Shown here: piece by piece, positions 2,013 through 52,893 of the stretch
How the letters are laid out: the number at the start of each line of letters is the position of its first letter
How positions within the stretch are numbered: position 1 is the first letter of the stretch
Assembly: GCA_025526935.1 (NCBI GenBank)
Contig: JAHLKD010000109.1
Span: 62,001-126,000 of the forward strand
DNA length: 64,000 bases
Source: Cladochytrium replicatum
Taxonomy: Eukaryota > Chytridiomycota > Chytridiomycetes > Cladochytriales > Cladochytriaceae
Direction: 5' to 3'
Translations under genes and position numbers: made by a program
Notes under the pieces: generated by a model
Seen by the model: the letters and a program-made list of their open reading frames with translations, nothing else
What the model was told of the DNA's origin: nothing
Databases searched by the model: none

Positions 2013-2717
2013 ATGAAAAGTAAATGTAAAAACTTAAATCCTAATGACAAGTAACCGAAAGGCACCAGCTCGATTAGTCTGGTAGCTACCGCTTCAATTA
2101 ATCTTGACGTCGCAAAAGTTCCGAGTTCCGCGTGGAGGTTCTGGGTGCTGAAAACATTGGCTGAAATCAACTCTGTCCCAAAACTCAGACAAAGCAACTC
2201 AACAATCCCATATCCAACTTCTTCCGTCAAATTACCGCATCAGCTTGCCATTGTCGTACAAGTTCTGTGCCTTCAGAGTTTATAATGATCCGGGCAACCG
2301 ACGTGCACATCATTGGTAGGATATTTGAATTCTTGTTATATTTCCCACAGTTCACGGTTCGATTCTGGGAGGATCGATTCCAGGAATCCCAGGTCTAGTA
2401 TTGAAAACAAAGAAATATAACTCCATTGGTATGACGTTCGCGCGACGCTAAAGCATGGTCTGATGGTCGTTTGACAGCGTATATTATTAAGAGAAAGTTT
2501 GGGACTAGAGAATAAAACATGTTAAAACACAGATCAGCATTTAGAAGAGGACTACTGCGACGCCCAAAAATGTCAGCCTTTAGCAGGGGAGCAGCTCTAC
2601 AGCCAGCTGTACTCTCAGCAGGTCATGCCACTGCCACAAAGTGCCCAAACTGTTGGATCTTCAACTCAGCTTGCAGAGAGCTGGCGCGTCGGCTTTTTCA
2701 AAGTCTTCGCTCAACAT
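2013..2717. other. Intergenic, no gene seen
   Basis: The 3' flanks of two convergent genes. Only short, composition-driven open frames are present, and I recognise no RNA gene or repeat. Confidence 0.6.
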
Positions 2718-5700
2718 TTAAAGATCATCGTGGTCGATCACTGCTCGTGGGGCCAAAGGAGCCTCGAATTTCCTTCTGTAGTTTTCCGGAAGCCGATTCC
2801 ACACCTCCGGCTCGTCTGCTTGGAAGCGCTCCAGTCCGCCAACACACAGGCGATTCACAGCCGAGATCCGAGTAATGTCGAGATAGTAGTAACACACGCG
2901 CCGGGCACCCTTCGTACTATCGGCTTCCAACGATCGTTTATACAAAAGAATCCTATTGATCTTGTATGTCGCCTCCTCGTTACGGTCCACCATCGCCTCT
3001 TCATTCGGAACGGCAAGCAAACTGACCGACGTTCGCTCTCCCATTCTTGTTGACTGAGATCTTGGGTTGTAGCAGAGATGTGTGAAGTACGATACTGCCA
3101 CACAGCACGAAAGTTTTACCCGGAGTTGTTTCCGATTTTGCTCCCTCTCTTCGCAAAGCTCTTGGCACATTGCAATGTAATTGGCCCACTCCTCCTGCTG
3201 CTGCTTTATTCCCTGATCCATTTCCTGAGTTGAGACCCCCGGCATTTTGATGTAGTCTTCTCCGTCCGGTAACTTGGTGGACTGTATATTTGGAAACTCT
3301 ATTTCCTCCAGTTCCTCAGCCCTTATCATTGCTCTACTCTGATCCAATGCTTGATCATCGTCGTTATCAACTCCTCTCGATTCTATCGACAGGTCTTGGT
3401 CTAACAATCCGTCGCTTGGGGTTGCCCATTCCTGACCATCGCTCCCGCCAGCGTCGTTTGGGGTTTCCTCACCATTGCTCCCACCAGCCATCTCAAGGCG
3501 AATCAATCGACCCTCCGAGAAACTGTGATTGGATGGTCTTGCTAGCTCCCCCAGCATTGGATCCAACGATTTAGTAGGTATTTTGACTGGCCGGGCTGGC
3601 GAGCGAAGGGTATCAGGTTCAATCGAAATTGCAGCGTTCAGCATTTCGTTGAGCTTGGACTCGATCACTGGGGAGGGGAGAGCGTTGATCAGTGAAGTGG
3701 CTTCAATTGTTGGTGGAACTGATTCGGGGTAGTCGCTCCTATCAGCACCGGCCCCGTCATTTCCCCTTGCTAAAGTTTTCGTCTCCTTCTTCATCTTGAT
3801 CAAATCCTCCAACATAAGTTTGGGCTTTTCCGGAATTTTCGGCTTCTTTGCGACAACCTCCAGCATTGTCCAGCCAAGTTTAATCGCCATCTGACGGATC
3901 TCAACACGCACTCGATGTACCTGCTTCAGCTGGTCGTGACGGACTCCATTCTCTTTGCACCATCTTTTCCTTGCTCCGACTTCGCGAAGCCAAGAACCAT
4001 AGTACCATAGCAACGCCTCAAAAGCACGGCCGTCTGACCATTCCAGATTTTCATCAGCATCAATTGATGTTTCAGAGAAATACTCTGCCATCAAAAGGAG
4101 CTTGGCATTGTCATCGTCCAACTCATCGTCTGATTCATCTTCCGAATCAGAATCACCTTTGTTTGTGGCAGCGGGTTGATCTAGGGGAGATTCGTCCTTA
4201 TTGTCGGGCAACCGAACGTTAAACCGGCTAATGTGGAAAGCAACGATGGTGACGGCCTCCTCGAAGCAATTCAGTTCTGCAGCTTCAATCAGAAATCGCG
4301 TGTCTTGGCAGTGCAACCCCGCCGAAGCGAACTGAAGGGCAAGATCTCCAAAATGCGTCACAACGTACGGAGTCCGTTTGGAACCGATGAATGCTTCGAC
4401 TGCTTGTGGATCCATTGTTTTCTCATCATCCACATTATCTGGTGTCGGCGGTGCCTCGACCTTGGTTATGAACTTGAGATCCAACAGCAGCTGAATCGCG
4501 AACTCGATATCCTCCCGTTGAGGCGGCAAAAACCATGTGAATGTCAAAGGGTCAATGTCGGCTTTCAGCATCCGCAGGACAGCACTGTCGAGCTGATCGT
4601 AGGCGACGACTCGGCCTTCGTCCATCATATTGTACTCTTCTTGGCTGTACATGCGATAGCAAATCCCTCTGAACTTCCTCCCCACTCGACCCTTCCTTTG
4701 GATCGCCGACGTCTTTGGAATTCTAGCCACAGTCTGAGTGACCGCGCCAGTCCTGATCTCTCGAGTCACATGCAGGTGCAACCCGGAATCGACCACGTAA
4801 CCGAGAGAGCTGATGGTGAGCGACGTCTCGGCTACGTTGGTCGCGAATATAACCCTCCGCACGCCAGCTTGGAACTTGTTCAGTTTTTCCGTGAAATCGA
4901 ACTCTGCCCAGCCCTCGGCATTCTCATTATCAGCCTTTTCGCTGTCGACAATGCCGAACGCATATTGCGGGTTTAAGACCAGATCTTTCTCATCATCATC
5001 GAGCGACGCATACAACGGGAGCGCAACGATGTCCCTGAGCCCTTTCTTTTTAGCCTTGGATCGAAGCATGTCACAAGCAGTAGTGATGTCAAGCGTGCGC
5101 GGGAAGAATACCAAAATGTCCTACACGTATGACTGTTTAGTTGATGGTCGAAGATGTATCAGTTAACTGACCTGATGTAGTGCTAACATGCGCTCTTCCT
5201 TTTCGGGGGTCATCGCTTCGTCGTCATCATCCACATCAGGAACTGGAACCTTTGATGAACCAGGCTTTGAAGCATCTGCATCATCCTTAACTGCCACTTC
5301 GGCCTGAATGGTCCCCCTCTCCTCGGAAACTTCTTTATCACTTTCTGTCTTCTTTCCCTTCTTTTTCTTCTTGTTCTTCTTACTGCTTTTGGATTGCTTA
5401 TTCATCGATACTGCGGTCGTATTTGGGTCTTCAAGGAGAATCTCCCTTGTTCTCTTCAAAATGTCGTGATTTGCAATATGAATCTCAATGCACTTTTCAA
5501 CGCATACTTCAACGTAGTTTGAGTCTGACTTGATTCCATAGTAGACTTCCACAGGATACGTTGCGGTCGTTACACGAACGAGTGCGACAGCGCCCAGATC
5601 GGTGGTCTGCCTATTGCGAGATTCTGGGACGGAACTTTGGCCGGTGTTCGGTTTATTCTCATTCTTTGGTTCTGTGACGGGTAATGCTGCGTTACGAATG

Positions 5701-8700
5701 ATATCGTCGAGCTTGGCTTTCTGTAGGTCTTTATCTTCAAACAAATCCATGTCGTCCTTCAAACGCCCTCTGTCCACATCATTGCCAAAGAAATCAATCA
5801 GTTTCTTCTCATCCACCGCGGCTGACATGAGCACTACACGAAGCGATGCGTTCGAGTCCAGGGCTCGCCTCAGGGACCCAAGGAGCAAGTAAAGTTCCAT
5901 CCCAGCTTCATGAACTTCGTCAACCACAACCACACTGAACGACGTGAACGATGGATCCGATGCCGATCGAGCCCTGTTCCAAATATTAGAGCAATCGCAG
6001 GCTAATTCCAACACACTTACAACAAGATGCCGTAGGTCACAAACTCAAGCAGTGTCTCTCCTTGTTTCACAACAGCTCGACCCATTCGTCCGATGTGATA
6101 TCCAACCTCTGCGCCTAATGTGGTGTTCCGAATCCCAGCAACATGCTGTGCAACTGAAGTTGCTGCTACACGCCGAGGTTGAGCAACCACGACACGGCGA
6201 CGAAACGACGCTTGTCCAGCAAGAATCCGTGCGTTCACGATGAACTGTGGTGCGATCGTAGACTTGCCGCTCCCCGTTTGTGCAACCAGCAAGAGAATCC
6301 GTCGTGCACGTTGACTCTCGTCTTTATCGTCCAAAAAGTCAATGGCCCGATGAATCTCTGCGCGCCTGTCGTATACTGGAAAATAACCTTTTCCCATAAG
6401 GTGACACTCGATATCAACTAGCCCCGACAAATCGCGAAGGTGCCTTTCGGCAGATCCAAAGCATTGCACCCTGGTTATGAAAGCCGACGTGATCTTGTGT
6501 AGCTCGCTGACGAAATCGGATCCGCGACCTGTGTAGACACGAACTTTCTCGACGATCCCGTTGACTTTCGCGATCAACCGAGCCTGCATTTCGATCCTGG
6601 TGTTTTTATCGCTCTCTTTGCCACGTTCTCGAAGATAATCCCGCGTCGAGTTGTTAATCCAATCCTTGAACTTGGCACGGGCTGCATTAAGCTCCTCTCC
6701 CAACCTTACGATAAGTTCAGCGTCGTCTTCTCTGTCCTTGTCTTCTCTGTCCTTATCCTTCTTCGCCCTTCTCAAGTTTTGCTCCGCAAGGTCAACCGGC
6801 TCGGCCAGCGTCGCCCATGTCGACACCAATTGCAAGATCAGACTGTTGTTGCTAGCCAATTTCTTGAGGTCGCCTTCCAGTGCCTGCAGCAGCTCGACGC
6901 ACCGTTTGGCTCTGTCTGATCCAAACGTCTCCGATATCTGTGAAGCAAGCTCCACAGGCATCCATCCACTAGCTCCCAATGCACTCTGCTCAATCTCAAC
7001 GATTTTGCTCCCGGCTGCACGAAGAGCGTGTCTAGCGAGATCGACTTCGTCCTGCAACTCCACCGTGATCGGAAAATCCTCATACACAATCCTCAAAGTC
7101 GGCGCAACCATCAGCTTCTCCCTCGTCCAAACAAGTAAGTCTGAAGAAGCTGGTGATTGAAAGTCGCCTCTGTTAGATTTTGCATACAACGCAATGATGT
7201 CCTCCATTGCCGAATCCACGTTAAGTTTGAATATTGGCTGCAACAATGAATGTTTCCGCTTTTGTGTGCTGTGTACGCAGTCGTTGATCTCCGTCATCAG
7301 TTTTTCATCGAGATCGCTCACTTCAGAAGGTCCGACCGCATGTTTTCCAATCTTGCTTGTAAGGACGTTCAGCAGAGCTTTGACGTTTTCTGGGTTGAGG
7401 ATGCTTTTCCCTCTCCCATCGCTCGGGGCAGTATGATCGATTCCCACATTAAACATTGAAACCAGCACGTCTTGAATTTGAGCCGGTGCAGCTGGATGCG
7501 ACAAACGCTGCCACAATCGCATGACCGAATCGACTTGCACCACCGCGTAATGATTCGGCAAAGTCGTCAGGAAATCGACAAGCTCTTCATGGAAGTGAGC
7601 GGCGGTCTTTTTGGGTTTACTCAGATTCTGGTATGGCAGAGGTTCTTGTGGCACGCGGGCAGAGATGGCAGACACGACCAGCGCCGCCATCTTCCCTGCG
7701 TCGTAATGAAACGGCTCGCATCCAGGTCCATCGTCCGGGAACAACATATCGTCCCAGATCACGGAGAATTTGTCGCCATCGAGATCCTATCAAAAAGCGC
7801 CGAGCACAGTCAGTTCCGAAGTTCCAAAACCTTCCACAATCCCAGTGAATTCGAAGGTGATAGAAATACGTACACCGCCGCTCATTTCGTCCGGATGAGG
7901 CCGGGTCCCGTTCGTTGGGAATACAATCACGTCCGCAACGTTCTCCAATCCACTCGGAGGCTTCTCCACTGCCGTGAGAATACGAATATCATTTGGATGG
8001 TATGATGGGAAACGGAAGACCATGACCTTCCCGCTTAGGACCGTCGGCTTGTCCACACCCGCCCAGGTCACTTGCAAATAGCATTCGCCCGGCTTCAGCT
8101 GTCCCGTATGGTCCGCACAGCCGTAAACACTCACCCCACGCACAGGAAGACGAACTCGATACATGAGTTTGCTGTCTTCAGCGAACGGATCAGGAGGTAT
8201 AAGAACCGAGGACTGTGTTTGCAGTAAATTCGCAGTATCCTGCGAGCTCGACTGCTGTGCTTGGAACTCTGCGGCTCGCTGAGACGGCGTCGGTGCCCGA
8301 TCCGGTTTCCTCCAATCCGCCAACTCGCTCTTCTGCCACGTCGCGATCCGATTCCATATCTTCTGTACCGCTCTTTCCGACGCAATGACCGAAAGGCTCA
8401 CGATGTCTTTGATGAGCGCTTCCAGGAGCGAAAACTTTCCCGTGAGCCAGAGATAGTTTAAGGCATACGCAGGACTCAGCGTCATGTACCGGACAGAGTC
8501 AAAGTAATGCTTTTCCAACTTTAAAATGCTGTCCACTTTGACTCCGCGCTGGACCAGCAGGGCGAGGACTTGATGGTTAATGGTCGTGTACGCTTTTGCA
8601 GGCCGTGCAAAACCGACGACATGGCACGGCATGCGTTTGTACATCTGAGCTTCTGTGTCGAATTGGAGTAAGCTCAGCACGTCCAGCTTAATCATGGACG

Positions 8701-9977
8701 GTCGCAAACGGATGGTTCGGTTGGGCAAAGTGGGGTCAGCAACAAGGACTCCCTTCACACCAGGCAATCGGACCTGAAAGATTGACGGACGGTGCTCCCT
8801 GTATTCGTGATCAGCGGAGTGCACAGCGTGCCCGCGTATCATCTCCTCCGCAACATCCATGGAAACGAGACCGCTACCATCAGTGAAATTGTATCCATTA
8901 ACCTTCACGTCATCAACCTTTTCGATGCGAACATTCTCGAGCTCGAATATGGGCCTGTAGTTGTTGAACAGCAGGCCGGCATACTTAGCTCTCTTTGCGA
9001 GGGAGAGCTTTGGCCCGTGCAGGCCAAGTGCTTTCAGTTTGTCGTTTCTGTCTGCCGCCCGAATCAAAATGCAGCCTTTTGTGGACTCCATTTGCTTCTT
9101 TGTTATTGCAAACAGGCAATATGGGTTGAAAATGCGGCACTTTGGCGGAAAAAACGAATCGATTCGTATGGAAATCCATTTGCGGGAATGGAAGCAGAGT
9201 CCCCCTCCTTCCTTTTGATCGGAATCTTGAAGAATTCGGCATAGCTCTTCAGATGTTCGGGACTGGTTGCATCGCCACGGAACTCGAGCTCGATGAAGAG
9301 GGAGCTGTCGGGAACAATCCATTCAATGAATTTGGTCATCATCCACGAGTTTGTTTGCTTGATCACTAGCGGAATTTGTTCTCCGGTGTCCTTTTTGGTG
9401 TCCTTTTTCGCCCAAATCACCGGATCAAATTGAGCGACTCTCATGGGCCGGGGTCGCTGTTCATCTTAAGGTGATACTCAGTTGCTGAAGCAAAATATCT
9501 TGGTTAGCTGAATCCTACATCTTTCAGGGGACTCCCCGAGCTTAATGTACATTGGTGGATCTGGAGAAGAGAGTCCAGTATCGTCGTCTTGGACGAGAGA
9601 AAGTGGTTAGCTCACTAAATCGGCTCGGATAAAGGGAGCTTACTCCATGGCGTCCCGGTAGAACCTCCTCCTCTGCCTCTTCCTCGACGTCCACTCCCAT
9701 TTCCTCCGTTTCGTCCTTTCTGAGTTGTGATATCACTTCTACCTCTCCCAGGAATGCCATTCTTGTTTGGCTGATTTGACGCTGGTCGATCATCAGGCTG
9801 ATCGCTTGCAGCTGGTCTACCTGAAACATAAACTTGTGAGCGATGTCCAACAGAATGGATTGATAGTCTCCAATGAGCAATGACATAACCACCAATTGTC
9901 TGTTTTCCCTTACCCTTCTCCTTATTCTTTGCAGGTTTCGGTGACGGTGGTTGTTCTTCGGCCCTGCTGCCATCCAT
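2718..9977 (-). CDS. RNA-dependent RNA polymerase fused to a DEAH-box helicase
   Basis: Seven exons: 9977-9914, 9820-9644, 9587-9519, 9464-7874, 7786-6021, 5973-5172, 5120-2718. They join to about 2,290 codons. Order: an Arg/Gly-rich N-terminus (residues ~22-80, GRGRGGG); a cellular RdRP domain with FTDGSGLVS near 294, GVKGVL...LRPSM, and the metal-binding DLDGD at about 635-639; a ~500-residue RdRP tail and charged linker (DKDREDKDRED near 975); then a DEAH/RHA helicase. Helicase motifs: I AQTGSGKST near 1135, Ia AQPRRVAATS, II DEVHE near 1240, III SAA, V TNVAETSLTI near 1582, VI QRKGRVGR near 1626, and a long C-terminal region. DLDGD and motif I lie in one uninterrupted exon of 1,766 bp, so the fusion does not depend on intron guesses. 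Known: cellular RdRPs make dsRNA for small-RNA silencing. Inference: the helicase clears or translocates RNA template or product. Odd: a one-base frame break near 9,155 in a T6 run; motif II is DEVH; the RdRP N-terminal region is short. A further 66-bp in-frame intron near 3,050-3,120 is possible. Confidence 0.85.
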
Positions 9978-10113
9978 CGCTCGAGCCGAGTGCGATCGAT
10001 GGCTTGTGGCGAGCCCTGAGCATCAATTTTGTAGGAGAATGGGAAACAACTATTATTTTCTTTTTAAAAATGAACAAGAACAAACTTGATGTGTTGAAAA
10101 AGAAACCCCTCGA

Positions 10114-11139
10114 TTATCCCTCCATTGACCCGGTGTAGTCATATTCCATGGTGGGCAAAACAGCCGACATGAACTTTAAGAACAAGAAGAGATACTGATC
10201 AACTCGAAGCTCAGAATCGTTCCCCCTCTCAACCCAATGATCGATGATGCGCTTCATGACGTTGGAGTGCTTGCATGGGTGGATCGACGCAAGGGAAACG
10301 TCCTCGTGCGGGTGCGCCTCGATCGTTACGGTCTTCAGGGCGTGGTCCTGCGAGATGTCTTCGAAGATTTGTTGAGAGGTTAGAGGCTGTCGGAATTCGT
10401 CATAGCCGAAGAGCCAGACTCGTGGAGTTTGCCAGTACTTGTCGTACGTGATGGACATATCATAGGTCCTGAATAGTAAAGACAACTTGATTTAAATAAT
10501 TCAAAATAGGATATCAAGTTATCTGTGCTACCTAGTTTTCAGGATCTTGTCTTCTTCCGTTGCAATTTGAGCAGATTTCGTGGACGTGTACACTGCTGCT
10601 GGGTCGTCTTCTTCCACAATGCCCATCTCATCATCGATATCCGGAATATCATCCAAGTCTGGCTGCACTTCGTCATCCTGCACCCTCACGTTCTGCACAC
10701 CCTCCCTCAACTTTCTGACCTCTTCCTCTTCCTCATCATCCACAATCTCTCTTTCCGCACCAGCAGCTCCCTCGCCCAGCCCAGCATGATGCGTAGCCAC
10801 CCACTCCTCATCACCATCGTCGTCCTTCACAAGTGTCTCCGCATCGACGTCTTCATCGGTATACTCCATTGCTTTGACTCTGCGCAGACAGGGCACGTTG
10901 CGCGTGATGAGGTACTGCTTGTCAGCCGGCAGATAGTCTCGGCGCTTGCCCTCAGTGCCTGCGGACCAAGCCCAGGTGGGGCATTTGTAGACCAGGAAGT
11001 CGCCAGCGAGGACAAACTCCTCAGGAGTGAGTACGCCTGTTTCTTTAAACTTTGATTCCTTGAGTAGCGGAGCGTATCTCTCGCGCAGGGTGTGGAACAT
11101 GCCATGGAGAGTTTGGTTGGGGAGGAACGACGAGGCCAT
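10114..11139 (-). CDS. ATG3: Autophagy E2-like enzyme Atg3
   Basis: Two exons (11139-10532, 10468-10114) join in frame to 320 residues, the usual Atg3 length. Atg3 transfers the ubiquitin-like Atg8 to phosphatidylethanolamine during autophagosome formation. The N-terminus ([20 protein letters not shown]) and the block [13 protein letters not shown] are characteristic. The central segment is acidic and low-complexity, as in the flexible region of other Atg3 proteins. After the intron come [16 protein letters not shown] and the catalytic HPC motif near residue 265 (HPCKH). The C-terminus keeps the FLKF...PTMEYDYT pattern. The single intron (10469-10531) splits an Arg codon. The start lies only about 90 bp from the divergent zinc-ribbon gene at 11,228, so the two probably share a promoter region. 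Confidence 0.95.
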
Positions 11140-11227
11140 TGCGTTGATGTGCTAGAAACACAGATGTCAAAGCCACTGAAGATGTAACACATACGAGATG
11201 TCAAAGCCACATTCATTGTTCAGAAGT

Positions 11228-33024: not shown

Positions 33025-34748
33025 ATGTCGGAAACACTCGTCTTGCGCGGAACACTTATCGGTACGTACGCGGAGGACACCGCTGTATCTCTGGTGTACT
33101 TCTATCGGTGCATGAATGATAATGATTGCTGCAAGTCTCAATGTTGCACAAATGCTAATTCTTTGATTGCTCTTTTTCTAGGCCACTCTGGCTGGGTTAC
33201 TGCTATTGCTACCAGCAATGAGGCTCCCGACATGATCTTGTCTGCTTCGCGCGGTACGTGCTCACTTTCAAAACTTGGGTTTCACAACTTGGGGTGTGGG
33301 CGTCACAGACTGTGATCTGGGCAATGTGGACACGCACCGACCCTCAGTAGCAACAGGCAAATGGGTTTGCGGTTTCACTGTGCTACAGGATGGATGAATA
33401 GATAGATGGATGTTCCGAGTCGATGGATGACATGGATGGATGGATGGATGGATGACGGATGGTTGGATGGTTTGCGGTAAGTTGAAGCAACTCGTCGCAA
33501 TAGTGGATATATGAGATAGGAGAATTGGGCTTGTAATTCTGTTGATTCGACTTAAGACGGTTCTGACGATTGACTTTCGACGACTACAGACAAGACCATC
33601 ATTGTCTGGCACTTGACCCGCGACGAGGTCACCTACGGTGTCCCCCGCCGGGCCCTCACTGGCCACAACCACTTTGTCCAGGACATTGCCATCTCATCCG
33701 ACGGCCAGTTCGCTCTTTCCGCCTCGTGGGGTAAGTGGTTTGGACTGCAAATATCTCTACCAGAAGTTCTTACTTTGGCCAATTTTAACAGACAAGACCC
33801 TCCGTCTCTGGGACTTGAATACCGGTCTCACCACCCGCCGCTTTGTCGGCCACACCAACGACGTTCTCTCAGTCTCGTTCTCCCCCGACAACCGTCAGAT
33901 TGTTTCCGGCTCGCGCGACAGGCAGATTAAGCTGTGGAACACCTTGGGTGAATGCAAGTACACCATGACTGAGGAGGGTCACTCCGAGTGGGTGTCGTGC
34001 GTCCGTTTCTCCCCCAACCCCCTCAACCCCGTCATTGTCTCTGCTGGCTGGGACAAGCTTGTCAAGGTGAGTTTTGCAGGCGTTTTGTGTTCATTTGGTG
34101 GAGGCGGTATGTGATGTTATCTGTTATATTTGCTACTTCGGAGGTTTGGTCAAATCCAACCCAATGAGACAAATTTAACCACCAAGATCTCTGATACCCA
34201 CCACCATTGTGCATTCAGTATTCCCCTTCTTTGAAACTCGACCTAACTCGTTTGCAATTTTTTTAGGTCTGGGACTTGTCTAAGGTCAAGTTAAAGACCA
34301 ACCACTACGGCCACACCGGCTACATCAACACCGTCACTGTTTCCCCCGACGGGTCCCTCTGCGCCTCCGGAGGCAAGGAGGGCATCGCCATGCTCTGGGA
34401 CCTCAACGAAGGTCGCCACCTGGACTCCCTCGAGGCCGACGACGTGATCCACGCGCTCACCTTCTCGCCCAACCGATACTGGCTCTGCGCCGCCACCGGC
34501 TCAGGAATCAAGATCTGGGACTTGGAGAGCAAGGCGGTTGTCGACGAGCCCAAACCCGACTACCCCGTGAGTTGATTTGACAACGTTTAAAATGATGCGC
34601 TGATTTCATTTTGGAACTGCAGGACGCCAACAAGAAGAAGAGCAGCCCCCCGCAGTGCCTCTCTCTCGCCTGGTCTGCGGACGGACAAACGCTGTTCGCT
34701 GGTTACTCCGATGGCAGGATCTTAGTGTGGCAGGTCACCCGTGCATAA
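33025..34748 (+). CDS. ASC1: RACK1/Asc1, WD40 ribosomal and signalling scaffold
   Basis: Seven WD40 repeats in the RACK1 order: [127 protein letters not shown]; and the last [21 protein letters not shown]1 sits on the head of the 40S ribosomal subunit and docks signalling proteins. Six exons, with introns at 33062-33181, 33254-33589, about 33731-33791, 34067-34266 and about 34567-34621. Start ATG 33,025 ([11 protein letters not shown]); stop TAA 34,746-34,748. The 200-bp intron carries a U24-type snoRNA, and the 336-bp intron carries a GGAT microsatellite. Confidence 0.97.
33389..33472. repeat. GGAT/ATGG microsatellite in RACK1 intron
   Basis: An imperfect run of the tetranucleotide GGAT (tggatggatggatggatg and variants) inside the 336-bp second intron of RACK1. 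It contributes to that intron's unusual length. Confidence 0.85.
34106..34198 (+). ncRNA. C/D box snoRNA U24 (snR24/SNORD24) in RACK1 intron
   Basis: Inside the 200-bp intron 34,067-34,266. Perfect 5-bp terminal stem: ggtat (34,106-34,110) with atacc (34,194-34,198). Box C-like gtgatgt (34,111-34,117) and box D ctga (34,191-34,194). A C'-like aatgaga lies near 34,163. The guide segments upstream of D' (atatttgctacttc, about 34,127-34,140) and upstream of D (accaccaagatct, about 34,178-34,190) match the U24 family, which guides 2'-O-methylation of large-subunit rRNA. In budding yeast U24 also lies in the intron of the RACK1 orthologue ASC1, so the host gene is conserved. It would be released from the spliced intron. 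Confidence 0.88.
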
Positions 34749-40611: not shown

Positions 40612-41465
40612 ATGACCGCTGAGGACCGCGAAGCTCGAAACAAGCATATCTTCAAGGGGAGAACTATCACACCTGGCGCAAACGCCTCGTTGCGTATCTA
40701 CGGGGAAAAGAACTTTTCGACGTCGTGGAGAATGGTCTCCCAGAAGCTCCACCAGCAGGAAGCGCCGACGAGGTTTTCGCAAAGCACAAGGAAGAGCTCA
40801 AGCAAGCACTCAAGGACGACGCGCTGGCGCGAGCCAAGATCCTGGAACTACTCGACGACGTCGCCCTCAACTTCGTTGATGAGGAGCCTACGGCAAAAGC
40901 GATGCTAGAGAAGCACGATTCGCTCTACCAGCGCGGATCGCTCTCAAGTAAGGCGAAGCTCCGGCGCCAGCTCATCACGACGCTCCTGGAATCCAACAGC
41001 GACCTCCGCGTGCACGTTTCGAAGCTGCAGGACTACATCCAGCAGCTTGCAGCAATCGGCGTCAAAATCAGCGGCGAAGAGCAAGTGATTTATCTCCTTG
41101 CGTCGCTCCCTCCCGCGTTTGATCCCGTGGTGAATACCTTCGACGTTGAGCCGGCGGATAAGCAGACCGACTTCAACTACATCGTAGGGCGGCTCATTGA
41201 TGACGAGAGCAAACGCAAGGATCGCCAAGATGAACCGGAATCGCGAGACAGAGCCTACGCGATGGCAAAGAAGAACGGCGGCAAGAACCAGCAAAAAGGC
41301 GGCAACAAGAACGCTCGACTCGTCTGCGAAAACTGCGGCAAGACCGGGCATACGATCAATCGATGCTGGGCTCGGGGGTGGGGTGGCGATCACGATCCCG
41401 AGAGGTGGAATCAATCCAAGGGCATGAACGCCAAGGCGGCGACCCTGCCAGCGATCGCCTTTTGA
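40612..41465 (+). pseudogene. Copia-type gag polyprotein with zinc knuckle, frameshifted
   Basis: From 40,612 the frame runs MTAEDREARNKHIFKG and then continues, after a one-base shift in a G4 run near 40,655, as ENYHTWRKRLVAYLRGKEL. This is the typical copia Gag (UBN2/DUF4219) N-terminus. The remaining frame to 41,465 shows the Gag helices (SSKAKLRRQLITTLLES, EEQVIYLLASLPPAFDP) and a CCHC knuckle CENCGKTGHTINRC followed by a Trp. The protein ends shortly after, without a pol fusion. Confidence 0.75.
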
Positions 41466-43414: not shown

Positions 43415-44800
43415 CTAAGTTGAAATTCCAATGAGTGAGCGCAGGTGAGCAAATGTCGGTGCCGATATAACTTTGGTAAAAATGTCGGCGGCATTGTCCT
43501 CAGTTTCTACGTAGATAGGCCTAATTGTCTCTTGCACGATTGCCTCGCGGATAAAGTGAAGGCGAATGTCGATGTGCTTAGTTCGTCCGTGTTCTGTCGG
43601 GTCTTTGAGGTGAGCAATACACGCTTGATTGTCTTCGAACTTGTTGCGAAGGCATAGAACTCGGCTTCCATTGTTGAGAGAGCCACGGAGTGTTGAAGCC
43701 GAGATCGCCATGACATGGGTCCACCGTTTGCCATGAAAACATATCCACCTGTGGACTTGCGTGTTTCCTCGTCTCCTCCCCAATCTGCGTCCGAGTATCC
43801 GACGATTTCAAATTGTGCACTCTTGCAGTATTGTATGCCGAAGCTTTTGGTACCGGTGATGTATCTGAAGATTCGCTTCGCAGTGAAAATGTCGGCAGCA
43901 GTTGGTGAAGACATGTTTCGACTGACTCTGTGCACGGCGTGCGCGATATCTGGTCGAGTTCCAAGCATCAAGAACATAAGACTTCCGACAGCTTCGTGGT
44001 AAGGATAGTCTTCACTTGTGATCTCTGAGTTTTGGCCTTGCTTACATCTTCTGGTGTAGAAACTGGTTTCCACTCTCCCATTCCGAATCGTTGAAGGATC
44101 TTGTCTAGTAGCTCTGTTGATCAATCCGGTATCCATCCCGTCGTTCGCTCAATTCTTATTCCAAGGTATGATGTTGCCTCCTCATCTTCAGTGATGTTGA
44201 ATACTTGCTTCGTGGCACTTGCTGCCACGATGGGATGGGTGATGCAAAAGGGAGATGTGAAGCAAGCATATCTCAACGCCATCTTGATGCACACCATCTA
44301 CCTCAGGATCCCTCCCGGTTTACCGTTCTCGGAAAATTGCAAGAAAGCCTGGTGTCTCCACAAGTCACTCTATGGACTCCGTCAGTCTGGCCGAAATTGG
44401 AACAAGGAGTTCGACTCTAAGCTTACCTCAAACAGATTCATACGGTTACGGTCAGATTCTTGTGTTTACCTTCTACCTGGTAATGGATTTGCGGAAGCAG
44501 TCATCATCGCAATATTCGTAGACGACGCGCTGGTCATTGGAACAGCGGAACGGACAAAATATGCTATGGGGATTCTCACGGAATATGACAAACGAGACAA
44601 CAGGCGCAAATACCTCGTCAAAATCAACACCAAATTGTTGCGTGAAACCTCGAGCAACAATGCGGGCCTTGAATCAATCGTGCGCCTGTTGGCGAGTACT
44701 TTGCGCTTGAACACCCACTTGGACTCAACGACAGTGGCATCTTCCGGCAAATCGACAACCTCGTAGGTCCCCAGAGCTCGAAGTCCAGCGTCCTCCTGCA
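43415..44800 (-). pseudogene. Copia reverse transcriptase and RNase H, with inverted palm segment
   Basis: Minus strand from 44,800: the RT start TYEVVDLPEDATVVESKWVF, then [20 protein letters not shown] and APVVS. At about 44,594 the protein stops matching; the RT palm (DVKQAYLNA, LYGLRQSGRNW, catalytic FVDD) is on the plus strand instead, until about 44,202. Minus-strand coding then resumes with FNITEDEEATSYLGIRIE, passes through ILQRFG, and runs into RNase H (YSDADWGGDEETRKSTGGYV) and the C-terminal ADIFTK block ending at 43,415. An in-frame stop near 44,128 also breaks the thumb region. Confidence 0.85.
44202..44594 (+). other. Inverted ~390-bp segment of reverse transcriptase
   Basis: Reads on the plus strand as the RT palm, from TCFVALAATMGW to [13 protein letters not shown]. 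If flipped, its two ends fit the flanking minus-strand RT sequence on both sides (...APVVS | TCFVALAA and LTEYDK | FNITED), so the segment has inverted in place with little or no loss. Confidence 0.85.
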
Positions 44801-44850
44801 TAGCCTGAATCCAATCCTCGCGATCGGAGAGGCGAGGGCGTCGGCATACG

Positions 44851-46752
44851 TTAGGGGCTCAGTGGAGGAGAACGACGCGGCCTGCAAAGCAAAGAGCTCA
44901 GAGGAGAAAGGAGCAAGAGCGGAGGAGCCGCCGAGGTTGTCGGGGTCGAAGTTGAAAGGGTCAGGCGGGAGGGTGACGGATCAGTGGGATCCAACTCGAG
45001 AAGCATGGCAGAGTGGCGAGGAAGAGGATACGCGGTTGAGGCCAAAAGGAGGGGAAGAGCTGACTGGAGATATGGCGCTGGATCGAGAGAATTGAAAACA
45101 TGATCACCGAAATACACTCTGTCACGGGTGAACTTATCTTCTAAAAAGGTGGCATGGTGGGACTCGACAATTTTGCCGGTGGATGGGACGTAGAACCGAT
45201 GAGCATGTGTGCTGGGGTTGTAGCCGACAAAGATGGTCCAAACAGCACAAGAGTCGACCTTGCCTCCAACAGGAGGGAGACTGCCAACACGAGGAACTAA
45301 GAGAATCCAGCCGTCGCACCCGAAAGTGCGAAGATGAAAAATATCCGGCCGATAACCGAACCAGGCTTCGAAAGGAGTCTTGTGATCCAGAGAGCGTGTC
45401 GGCAAACGATTCAACAGGTAGACAGCAGTGCGCATGGCCCCTTCCCAGAATTCGGCAGGTAGGTTGGCGTGGTGAAGCAATGTGCGAGCGACGGTGAAGA
45501 CGGTCAAGAAAAACCGCTCAGCGACACCGTTGTATTGCGGAGTGGCGACTTCGGTAACGTTAATTGAGACACCGAGCTGGCTCAGGAACGATTTGAATTC
45601 CCCAAGGAACTCGCGTCCACTGTCTGTTTGAATGGACTTGACCAGCTGTCCAGACTCTCTCAGCGTGTCGACCGTACGAGCTTGCTTGTCCGAAGAGAAG
45701 AGCACCCAACGACCGGAGGTGCAGTTGTTGGTCAAACCTGCGACGTACTGATTTCTGGTGAGTGAGGGAGGCGAGATTGGGCCGGCGAGGTCGAGATGAA
45801 CACGCTCGACGGGTGCTGTTGCGCGGCGACGGGAACCATGAAAAGGCTGTTTGCGCGCTTTGGCAGCTTGACAGGACGCACAACTGTGGACGTTAGCATC
45901 GTTGAAAGCTTGAACACCGAGACCGTCCACAAGATGAGGAAGCTGACGCAAGGCGTTGATGCCAGTGACCAGTGCGGGCATGCCAGAGCTGAGCGAGTTG
46001 AGCTTGCGTGGTCGTAACAAGAAAGGCGGTGGGTTTTCCGAAGACTTGAGCAGATTGCAGACGCCAAAGGCGGCCTATGTCCCGGCGAGCAGTAAAGAAA
46101 AGCGCCCCGTTTGGATAAAGGACATCGCAAACATCCTTGGCAAACTTGACCTCGAGGCTCACATCCACGAGGCGACCAACAGATACCAAGTTGTGGGAGA
46201 AAGTCGGGGCGTAAAATACATTGGTAAGTTCAAGATTGTTAGTTCTGCCATTCAAATCAAACATCAGTTTGACTGAACCAGGTTCAGTGACGGGGACCGT
46301 CTCGTTGTTCCCGACTAGGATAGTCTCTGAAGGAACGCTCCGGAGATTGGCAAACGCTGCACGATCCTTGCATATGTGTGTCGTCGCTCCTGAGTCAAGA
46401 TACCAAGAGATCTCGTCACTGGAACGAGCCGACAAAACGGTGTGCTCAATTCGATCGACAGCACAAGGGATTGATGGAAGAGTAGGGACCTCGTGAAGTT
46501 CCCTGTGTGATCGAGTCACCCGGTCGTGGTTGCTCAATCCGACGCACGCGAAGAATGGCGTGAATGTTCGCGCGCCAGACTGTTATTGGTGTTTGCGATG
46601 TTGGCTTGGTTTCGACAACCGCAGTTGTTGCCGTTGTTGTTGCCATTGCTTCCCAATAGGTTGCACATGTTGGCTGGTCAAGTGTCTTGTCCGGTGGCGG
46701 TGTCGCGAGCGCAACGGCGGCAGTCTGCTTGTATGTGAACTTGGATGCCACA
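44851..46752 (-). pseudogene. Copia zinc knuckle, protease and integrase
   Basis: Starting next to the hAT insertion are the second half of a CCHC knuckle (CGIQVHIQADC), then the aspartic protease WYLDSGATTHICKD, the gag-pre-integrase region (LWHARTGHW, HSCASCQAAKARKQPF) and the integrase core (HLDLAGP, IQTDSGREFLGEF, QYNGVAERF, AVYLLNRLPTRSL). The frame changes between the knuckle, protease and integrase blocks, so this copy is not translatable as one polyprotein. Confidence 0.85.
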
Positions 46753-50015: not shown

Positions 50016-52893
50016 TTAAAAGAGTGGGTTATCATCAGTTGCTTCCAACTCTAATACCACATCAAAATCCTCGCCAAAATTATGCACCTTTACAAAATCC
50101 TCACTAACATCACTTTTTGAATCTAGGGAATCATTTTTGAACTGTTCTTCAGCACTCAATTGATGCAACCAGTCATGACGGCACATCAACGCATCTATTG
50201 TTCTTGGAGCAAGGCGGTTGCGAGTTGCAGGTACCAAATCAACCCCGGCTGAAAACTTTTGTTCGACTGGAGCGCTTGTTACTGGTATTCCTAAATAGTC
50301 CATTGCCATCTGGCTTAGGGCTGGAAAGTTCACACTTCCAACGGTTTTCTACCAGTCCATAATATTGATTGGCTTCCCATCAGAATCAATACCGCGGAGT
50401 ACCTGATCACCAAGATAGCGATCCAGCTCATCTTTTTCCTCAGGAATCTCTTCTTGCCAGATGAAAACAGATCTAATGGCTCTCAAGCGTTCAGCGTCGG
50501 TTTTTTTCTGTCTATCACCGGAAGCTCCGCTCGAATCGTGTCGACGTTCTGGCGTGTTTCCAAAAACATCGGCACCACTGTTCTTGATTTCCGTGACTTA
50601 TACAATTCCTCCCAGACTTTCCGCACTAGGGTGACCTGATCCCTTCCTACATCTTTCTCCCAAGCCTTTGAAAATCGATAATATTGATCCTTAAAACGAG
50701 GATCGAGTACCGTAGCAACTGCTTAACACGGGCTCTTAGCAATTGAGTAATATATTCTCAGCTTATCTAGTGCATTTCGAAATGCTTTGGTGAAAGTTTT
50801 ATCCAAATCTGCCTCCTCTAGGTCCTCCAGTTGATCGATAAGATCGTTGTAAAATGGAATAACAAGCGGAAGTGTTGGATATCTAGACCCCTCGATTGCC
50901 TTTGATATAACCTCGAAAACACTCAAACCATCCCGGATCTTCTGTAGGACCTCCCATTGCTTTGGATTTATTGACCAATCTTTCAAAGAATCTTCAATCC
51001 AGCAAATTTTGTCTATTGCCTCTCGTAGCTGTAAGGCTCGTGTGACCATACAGAACGTGCTATTCCAGCGAGTTGTCACATCGATAATTGGTATGTAGAA
51101 TTTCGTAGTAGGCAGGTAAGATCAGATAAGAGGTACTTGTTCAATATATTGGAAGCTTAAGACTCACACCTTTTATAGGTTCTCCCATTCCCAACAAAGC
51201 CTCCCTTAATTTGTCCTTGCCACGTCAGCAGCGGCGCTCTCCTTCCTCCTTTGGTAAGTCCCCTTCAAGTTTGCTGGTGATCCGGAATTTTCTGGAACGC
51301 TGGCTTTTGAAGTTTTCGTCGAAGAACATGAAGCCGAAATAGAAACAGAAATGAAAATTTTGGATAACAACAAAGCTAGCGTCGTGGGTTAAACCACAAG
51401 CCATTCAACATCATGTCGCAAGTTCGGTTCCGAGGATCAACAATAATCCTGTTGTTATCCTCAGCCGAACTTTTTCTTTTTGAAAGTAAAAACAAAGAAG
51501 GAAAACTTTTATGAACGAAACAACACTCAACAGGTAATAGAGGAACCAGTTTCACAAATCGGCACGAATCAATAAATGAGCTTCGTCGTTTTGGGGAAGA
51601 CCGGATTCCTCTGACTAGCCGTTGAAGAAGGTTTATGACATTAACGCCGGAGTTATCGTCATTTGCGACTGTGTCCCCTGCGGGCGCGAATGTATCGACA
51701 AAATCCTTTGCTGTAAGATTGATAATGTGTGCCATACGCCACATGCGTTGAGTTTCTGCAGACCACGCAATATCCCTATCTTCCAAGAGCGTCTCCAGCT
51801 TAGCACTCATGGTAAAGTTGTTTGAACTGTTGTCAGTTGTAATGCACAATAAGTGTTCACCCGATAGCATGCCAAATTCATCCAGACACTTGACAAGCTG
51901 ATTAGCCATGGCGACGCCTTCATGCTTTCCAACCATCAGAATCATCTGCAGCAGCAAGTCCTGCAGCTCCCATTCTTTCGTGATGAACTGGGCAGTAATT
52001 CCAAGAAAAGAAATCTGGTTCTTCGATGTCCAACAGTCAGCTGTTATTGATACTTTTGAAGGCGAACCAACAATCAGACCTTTAACGAGCTCCTTCTGCC
52101 TATTGTAAAGATCCATCTCCTTTTGCTTCACTGCTTTTGCTGTCTTTGGTGTATAGTTTGGCTGAAAAGTCTTCAGCGTGCTGACAAAGAACTCGTTCTC
52201 TACAACTATAAAAGCCTGATTGTCTGCAGCAATCCAGTCCAAAATTGACCGCCACGCTACGTCTGGATTGAACACAAAGTTTTGCTCCTTCTCCTGCGAG
52301 CCGAAATTCAATGTCTGTTGTCCCTTGGGGACGATGTCCAACAGTCCAAGTGACCTGGCAATACTTCCATGGTGGTTTTTCAGATGCCGGAGGAAGTTTT
52401 TTGTTGATCCCGTCTTATCGACCTTCTGGCTCCACTTGCATTTCGCAACCAAACATGTTCTCAGACCATTATCAACCTTATAGTAATCCTTCGCTATGCT
52501 GCCTCGACTACCTCTACAGTCCGACATGCTATCAACATCTGCGTCTGATGAAAGCATTGATGGTTGAACTGATCCAGCTGCAGGCTCCTGTCGCACTGAA
52601 GAGTCAGCAAAACTAACGTCAGCAGGAAGCTCTGGTGCACGCTGAGAAGCCAGGCCCAACTCGCTGGAGTCATTGGAAGAAGATGTGGAGCTCGGCTCTC
52701 GAGCGCTGTTGTTGCCACCGTGTCCTTATACACGTCTGCGTTTGTCCTGCATGCTGTTCCCCTCCCTGGACGCCTCTGAAATTTGGGGGGCCGGCAGACT
52801 TCGCTTCCGTGTGTCAAGCGGATGACTGTCCACCGGTCTTTGGCTTGCATCGGACGCTGCCTTACGCTTTGGTTTAACAAAGGCAGCATCCAT
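50016..52893 (-). CDS. hAT-family transposase
   Basis: Probable start at 52,893 (MDAAFVKPKRKAA), joined by a short intron near 52,730 to the long exon 52,659-51,545. A BED-type zinc finger (CLVAKCKW...FLRHLKNHH) binds DNA. The RNase-H-like core shows ITADCWTSKNQISFLGIT, LLCITTDNSSNNFTM and RMAHIINLTAKDF. After a gap of about 450 bp (long intron or insertion, with GTG/AG candidates) it resumes with VTTRWNSTFCMVTRALQLR. The C-terminal dimerisation domain follows (50,333-50,016): LGIPVTSAPVEQKFSAG...RNRLAPRTIDALMC. A stop or frame change between about 50,720 and 50,340 leaves part of the insertion domain unread, so the gene may be damaged. Confidence 0.8.

Follow-up and report, generated by a model that had tools for sequence, protein, structure and literature searches.

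We found that a 64,000-nucleotide (nt) window of the Cladochytrium replicatum genome (contig JAHLKD010000109.1, here C109:62001-126000; the genome comprises 50.5 Mb in 198 contigs) holds a minus-strand gene in which the sequence of a cellular RNA-dependent RNA polymerase (RdRP) is followed by that of an RNA helicase. The explanation we favor is that this is probably one gene, encoding an RdRP of RNA silencing whose C-terminus carries an RNA motor of the DEAH/RHA type. The fusion is read at the level of DNA, from which we infer expression and activity. Compared with the known fusions of an N-terminal, Dicer-like helicase to an RdRP, what is new here is that the predicted helicase belongs to another family and lies at the opposite end.

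From position 9322 the gene splices into a frame of 2,139 codons through three GT-AG introns (87, 47 and 51 nt), with a stop codon at 2720-2718. The RdRP exon is open over 9322-7874; after it come the junction exon at 7786-6021, the helicase exon at 5973-5172 and the last exon at 5120-2718. Upstream exons predicted at 9977-9914, 9820-9644, 9587-9519 and from 9464 onward would form a plausible RG-rich N-terminus in another reading frame, designated frame A, the RdRP being in frame B. Only A, C, G and T occur in bases 2400-10400. The features, all on the minus strand of the window, are:

9914-9977, minus strand: predicted exon 1, with the ATG at 9977 and the start of the RG-rich N-terminus (splice-site reading, prediction only)
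9644-9820, minus strand: predicted exon 2, RGRGRGGG-rich and likely disordered (splice-site reading, prediction only)
9913-9821 and 9643-9588, minus strand: predicted introns flanking exon 2 (prediction only)
9519-9587, minus strand: predicted exon 3, followed by an intron at 9518-9465 (prediction only)
9155-9464, minus strand: predicted exon 4 (frame A), with N-terminal sequence of the RdRP half (splice-site reading)
9148-9154, minus strand: frame break at TTTTTTC, with the T run at 9154-9149
7874-9147, minus strand: RdRP exon in frame B, which is open from 9322 onward (9322-7874 matches Pfam PF05183 with E 3.4e-56)
7787-7873, minus strand: intron, 87 nt, GT-AG, splicing EMSGG in frame to DLDGD
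6021-7786, minus strand: junction exon with DLDGD, the C-terminal part of the RdRP, a linker of ~260 residues, Walker A and motif Ia (589-residue stop-free frame, coding statistics)
5974-6020, minus strand: intron, 47 nt, GT-AG
5172-5973, minus strand: helicase exon with motif II DEVH, motif III SAA and a Lys/acid-rich insert
5121-5171, minus strand: intron, 51 nt, GT-AG
2718-5120, minus strand: last exon with motifs IV, V and VI, a winged-helix-like part, a weak HA2-like part, a C-terminal region of unproven fold, and the stop (Helicase_C 32 bits for this exon alone)

The spliced RdRP half matched the Pfam family PF05183 with 230.3 bits (E 6.4e-68, cut-off 23.8), and its catalytic DxDGD loop is intact (DLDGD at 7786-7772). 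Around the catalytic region it carries DGSGLVS, FQVRLPGVKGVL, RPSMIKL, HPNDIRIL and RPHPDEMSGG-DLDGD, stretches that we take to be conserved, in part on the basis of alignments to solved RdRPs. Among solved structures, seven sequences were related to this half at E up to 1, all of them named RdRPs and including RDR2 and QDE-1.

In the helicase half, the RecA-core motifs I, Ia, II, III, V and VI are present, in order and in frame: motif I (Walker A, AQTGSGKST) at 6283-6257, motif II (DEVH) at 5921-5910, motif III (SAA) at 5825-5817, motif V (TNVAETSLTI) at 4841-4812 and motif VI (QRKGRVGR) at 4700-4677, with both motif VI arginines kept. When spliced, this half passed the Pfam cut-offs for DEAD (33.9 bits, cut-off 26) and Helicase_C (31.7 bits, cut-off 23.5). 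Its closest solved relative was DHX15 (E 5.4e-42), with Prp43 and further DEAH helicases next; 70 solved sequences matched at E up to 0.001, and the best 60 of these 70 include none named Dicer or RIG-I. The best NCBIfam models were HrpA (E 3.3e-50, 170.8 bits) and HrpB, both with scores far under their equivalog cut-offs. By likeness of sequence the helicase is thus securely placed among the DEAH/RHA enzymes and not with the Dicer type; an earlier reading of this DNA, made from the sequence alone (the sequence-only reading), had assigned it likewise, and the DHX15 and HrpA matches bear that out. As in DHX15/Prp43 and HrpA, RecA1 and RecA2 align and the alignment continues into a putative winged helix, which aligns both with DHX15 and with another helicase of the genome, on contig C143 (Prp22-like, judged by eye). 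Unlike these proteins, the window gene has large Lys/acid-rich inserts, DEVH and SAA in place of their motifs, and the RdRP fusion.

We assessed whether the two halves belong to one gene from the junction exon, which at 1,766 bp comprises 589 codons without a stop and holds both DLDGD and Walker A. The sequence-only reading had claimed as much, with motifs II, III, V and VI following in frame over two further exons; on re-reading, the coordinates agreed, as did the motifs after introns 6020-5974 and 5171-5121. Between the two halves lies a linker (junction-exon residues 211-470, ~260 codons) that was stop-free by chance in 0 of 20,000 base shuffles. Its codon log-odds score was 0.082 in frame, whereas the two remaining sense frames scored −0.112 and −0.050 and the antisense frames at most −0.001, using codon usage trained on 18 long frames that were not vetted gene by gene and include the RdRP gene on contig C72 described below. 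The in-frame score was comparable to those of the other exons (0.054, 0.142 and 0.094) and was reached by 0.3% of 2,000 random window stretches, coding ones included. Across the junction exon, the coding frame was positive in 14 of 14 windows of 60 codons.

The same arrangement occurs at a second site in the genome. On contig C22 (C22:88001-98000, minus strand, ~7498-5183) we found a decayed paralog of the fusion, with stops, frame changes and an internal deletion, in which five RdRP segments are 46-69% and one helicase-exon segment 42% identical in amino acids to the window gene; eight DNA matches (69-84% identical) are all collinear on one strand. The shared order, RdRP then helicase exon, at two genome sites argues that the order is older than the duplication and is not an assembly join. 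We compared the two copies by the ratio of nonsynonymous to synonymous substitution (dN/dS), which was ~0.19 for the pooled RdRP segments and 0.29 for the helicase segment; these values are rough, as they cover only the six segments alignable by BLAST, with dS near saturation (infinite in one 50-codon segment) and a pseudogene as one partner. Two overlapping or tandem genes, with the RdRP ending in the linker and the helicase having its own promoter and start in the long exon, would fit the in-frame Met codons of the linker (e.g., junction-exon residues 226, 276, 400 and 464), but the lack of a stop between the halves in the 589-codon exon, the coding signal that stays positive through the linker and the relic's retention of both parts, ordered on one strand, speak against that arrangement, which we regard as improbable. 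The open frame, the linker coding statistics and the relic of the same order together give good support to the earlier claim of one gene for RdRP and DEAH helicase.

Several observations weigh against a single gene with two working halves. In the junction exon, the coding frame was the best of six in 10 of the 14 windows, tied in one and beaten in three, two of them in the linker. The match to PF05183 covers the model no further than position 466 of 582, so the C-terminal part of the RdRP is diverged. The relic has no counterpart of window positions ~7190-5772 or of anything after ~5165, and it therefore preserves neither the junction nor any of the named motifs of the helicase; the segment corresponding to window 5771-5199 was assigned to the helicase solely by likeness to the window gene. 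In the window gene itself, HA2_C scored 15.7 bits against a Pfam cut-off of 21.3, motif III is SAA instead of SAT, and no Pfam match to an OB fold was found, the C-terminal region alone giving one match among solved chains (an antibody chain, E 0.83). Upstream, the predicted N-terminal exons in frame A switch to frame B of the RdRP at TTTTTTC (9154-9148).

The sequence-only reading had called the helicase complete; the RecA cores and motifs stand, and because HA2 is weak and the OB fold undetected, a complete helicase is supported only in part. Against the C143 helicase, the HA2-region stretch was collinear but negative-scoring, and the winged-helix and HA2 region alone gave six weak matches among solved chains (best E 0.5, one RNA helicase at E 0.72). 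Judging from DEAH-box mutants, SAA in place of SAT in motif III may loosen the coupling of ATP use to unwinding. The SAA motif leaves room for an ATP-driven clamp or ribonucleoprotein remodeler that would tether the RdRP to its template in place of a strong unwinding enzyme, a variant compatible with the fusion reading that would also fit a DEVH motif II off the DEAH consensus, the weak HA2 and the undetected OB fold. The remaining motifs are kept, however, including both motif VI arginines, and DEVH is also reported in the RDR helicases of Dictyostelium (PMC4791657); we consider a clamp or remodeler rather unlikely.

The frame break falls inside the gene span of 2718..9977 given by the sequence-only reading, which did not mention it; the start of that span coincides with the predicted ATG at 9977. 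It may be a homopolymer assembly error, a real inactivating change or decay, or a site of −1 frameshifting. In the aligned relic, the corresponding stretch is 11 nt shorter, has no T run and is read through in a single frame; exon 4, which matched no Pfam family in frame A (9464-9155), is 55% identical to the relic over 56 aligned residues. An in-frame ATG lies downstream of the break at 9091 in frame B, and a product from it would lack about eighty positions at the start of the RdRP model; in the genome search the PF05183 match begins at model position 74, close to the break. If the change is real, the window gene could be a recently inactivated copy heading the way of the C22 relic, with the fusion genuine and no longer made because the break blocks the full protein. 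The T run at 9154-9149, where the relic keeps one frame, and the existence of a decayed sister would be expected of such a copy, but 2,080 of the 2,139 codons lie downstream of the break and show no further disruption, dN/dS is low (within the limits given above), and codon usage is coding-like across most of the junction exon. Breaks inside homopolymers are also a frequent assembly error, and the ATG at 9091 lies past this one. Inactivation is on balance clearly unlikely.

Programmed −1 ribosomal frameshifting at U UUU UUC (9154-9148) would instead yield two products, one short and N-terminal, the other longer and containing RdRP and helicase. The heptamer is in register for a −1 slip from frame A to frame B, and the stretch folded from 9142 forms a stem of −18.6 kcal/mol (z −1.8), but 13 of 200 shuffles folded as well or better from a start point that we chose ourselves, the T run is absent from the relic, and simpler explanations are available; we consider this account highly improbable. 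A 43-nt intron at 9140-9098 that would bypass the break was judged by eye and is not favored: its donor is poor, it is shorter than the six modeled introns, and it would delete a segment conserved in the C22 relic.

We also surveyed the genome for other silencing genes. PF05183 matched at four loci (twelve stretches), Piwi gave 17 matches, spread over seven places and six contigs, and RNase III gave seven matches on five contigs, with domains paired as in Dicers on C13 and C105. The Piwi and RNase III matches indicate that an RNA-silencing pathway is likely present, and this pathway may use the window gene. The RdRP on C79 appeared plain by eye. The RdRP on C72 (C72:166001-176000, minus strand, 9280-3676, locus L019, together with 2057-1305 of locus L034 upstream) spans a frame of 1,241 residues with Helicase_C (60.3 bits) and RdRP model positions 1-438 (322.1 bits), and a next frame of 639 residues with positions 438-581 and a nucleotidyltransferase; read unspliced, the two frames meet within the catalytic loop, and a GTGKT motif lies in the frame adjoining upstream. 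Its helicase is similar to chains of Dicer and RIG-I-like proteins (best E 2e-38, for AncD1D2, among the best 60 of 156 matches). The nucleotidyltransferase matched an MTPAP-like central domain (33.6 bits, cut-off 27), scored 13.1 bits for NTP_transf_2 (under the cut-off of 21) and resembles GLD-2 (two chains, best E 0.0027). From these matches the C72 gene looks like a Dicer-type helicase, an RdRP and a C-terminal nucleotidyltransferase, that is, the functions of the RNA-directed RNA polymerase complex (RDRC) in one predicted chain.

PMC4791657 describes helicase-RdRP fusions in Dictyostelium, Peronosporomycetidae, Hydra and Nematostella, in which a DEAD-box, Dicer-like helicase lies N-terminal to the RdRP, as the sequence-only reading had stated for Dictyostelium. 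Like these proteins, the window gene unites RNA helicase and cellular RdRP in one predicted chain, and it shares DEVH with those of Dictyostelium; unlike them, it has its helicase at the C-terminus, and this helicase is DEAH/RHA-like, not an N-terminal Dicer-type helicase. Fission yeast RDRC consists of Rdp1, Hrr1 and Cid12 (PMC2965749) and likewise pairs an RdRP with an RNA helicase, acting upstream of Dicer, but as separate subunits. The window gene has its pair in one predicted chain, and of the RDRC-type trio no nucleotidyltransferase family was found in it with Pfam at E up to 1, though its paralog on C72 carries one. To our knowledge, Hrr1 is not a DEAH/RHA protein. DEAH motors are tied to the silencing of transposons or transgenes elsewhere as separate proteins, namely a Chlamydomonas DEAH-box helicase, presumably Mut6, and Spindle-E, a DEAH protein with a role in silencing that is among the matches of the helicase half. 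We know of no RdRP fusion for either, and the other RdRP-helicase pairings known to us consist of separate proteins or place a motor of another kind at the opposite end. In a limited search that covered few subscription journals, the accessible parts of the fungal RNA interference literature (PMC4290597, PMC7763443, PMC12663654, PMC10515909) and of PMC2877743 made no mention of an RdRP-DEAH fusion.

On the favored reading of one RdRP-DEAH gene, the fusion protein would make double-stranded RNA from silencing-target transcripts, for Dicer. The sequence-only reading had suggested a polypeptide that would unwind structured RNA and copy it into double-stranded RNA. DEAH helicases travel 3′ to 5′ on single-stranded RNA and RdRPs read their template 3′ to 5′, and with this shared direction a motor in cis could travel along the same strand in front of the polymerase. 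The motor ahead of the RdRP may open template structure or strip proteins, raising processivity, and could do in cis the job ascribed to the separate helicases Hrr1 and SAD-3 in other fungi. More tentatively, and as something possible rather than probable, the gene may encode a self-contained silencing replicase, with a 3′-5′ DEAH motor ahead of the RdRP; it would then have arisen independently of the Dicer-type helicase-RdRPs, in a species whose C72 gene would unite the RDRC functions in another single chain. How RdRPs handle structured or protein-covered templates, and why they go together with helicases, are questions that multi-subunit complexes make difficult to approach. If a natural protein joins an RdRP to a motor of another class in one chain, that would point to a functional rather than an incidental pairing, and point mutations in that one protein would let copying be separated from translocation. 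Together with its C72 paralog, the window gene suggests that silencing-amplification machinery has merged into single proteins more than once.

Within the linker, FGSAERHLRDLSGLVDIE resembles the FGS...DID of the C72 nucleotidyltransferase domain, and we rejected a remnant of such a domain as no better than shuffles. The FGS...DIE motif, picked after being seen, also occurred in 354 of 20,000 shuffled linkers (1.8%), and in three alignments of the linker with the C72 exon the score was matched by 46%, 34% and 94% of shuffles. Against solved structures the linker had 0 matches up to E 10. A scan of the junction exon against a collection of viral contigs that is unlikely to include fungi gave one pattern match and no relative.

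The gene is flanked on its 5′ side by an Autophagy_act_C (Atg3-like) gene at 10117-11151 on the minus strand and on its 3′ side by a cytochrome P450 gene at 380-2009 on the plus strand. Elsewhere in the window, open reading frames at 40623-41465, 44095-46582 and 51376-52725 resemble, by eye only, parts of copia-type retrotransposons and a hAT-like transposase. In the genome, 5.8S ribosomal RNA had nine matches, on C55, C82, C116, C68, C150, C12, C104, C69 and C94, the best scoring 160.2 bits and the weakest 41.9, short of the cut-off of 42, and with this spread some ribosomal DNA copies look diverged or broken. Pieces of 18S, 5.8S and 28S ribosomal RNA sequence looked fungal by eye. At the gathering threshold, Rfam yielded a single match in the window, a SNORD24 C/D-box small nucleolar RNA at 34106-34198 (50.7 bits, cut-off 41).

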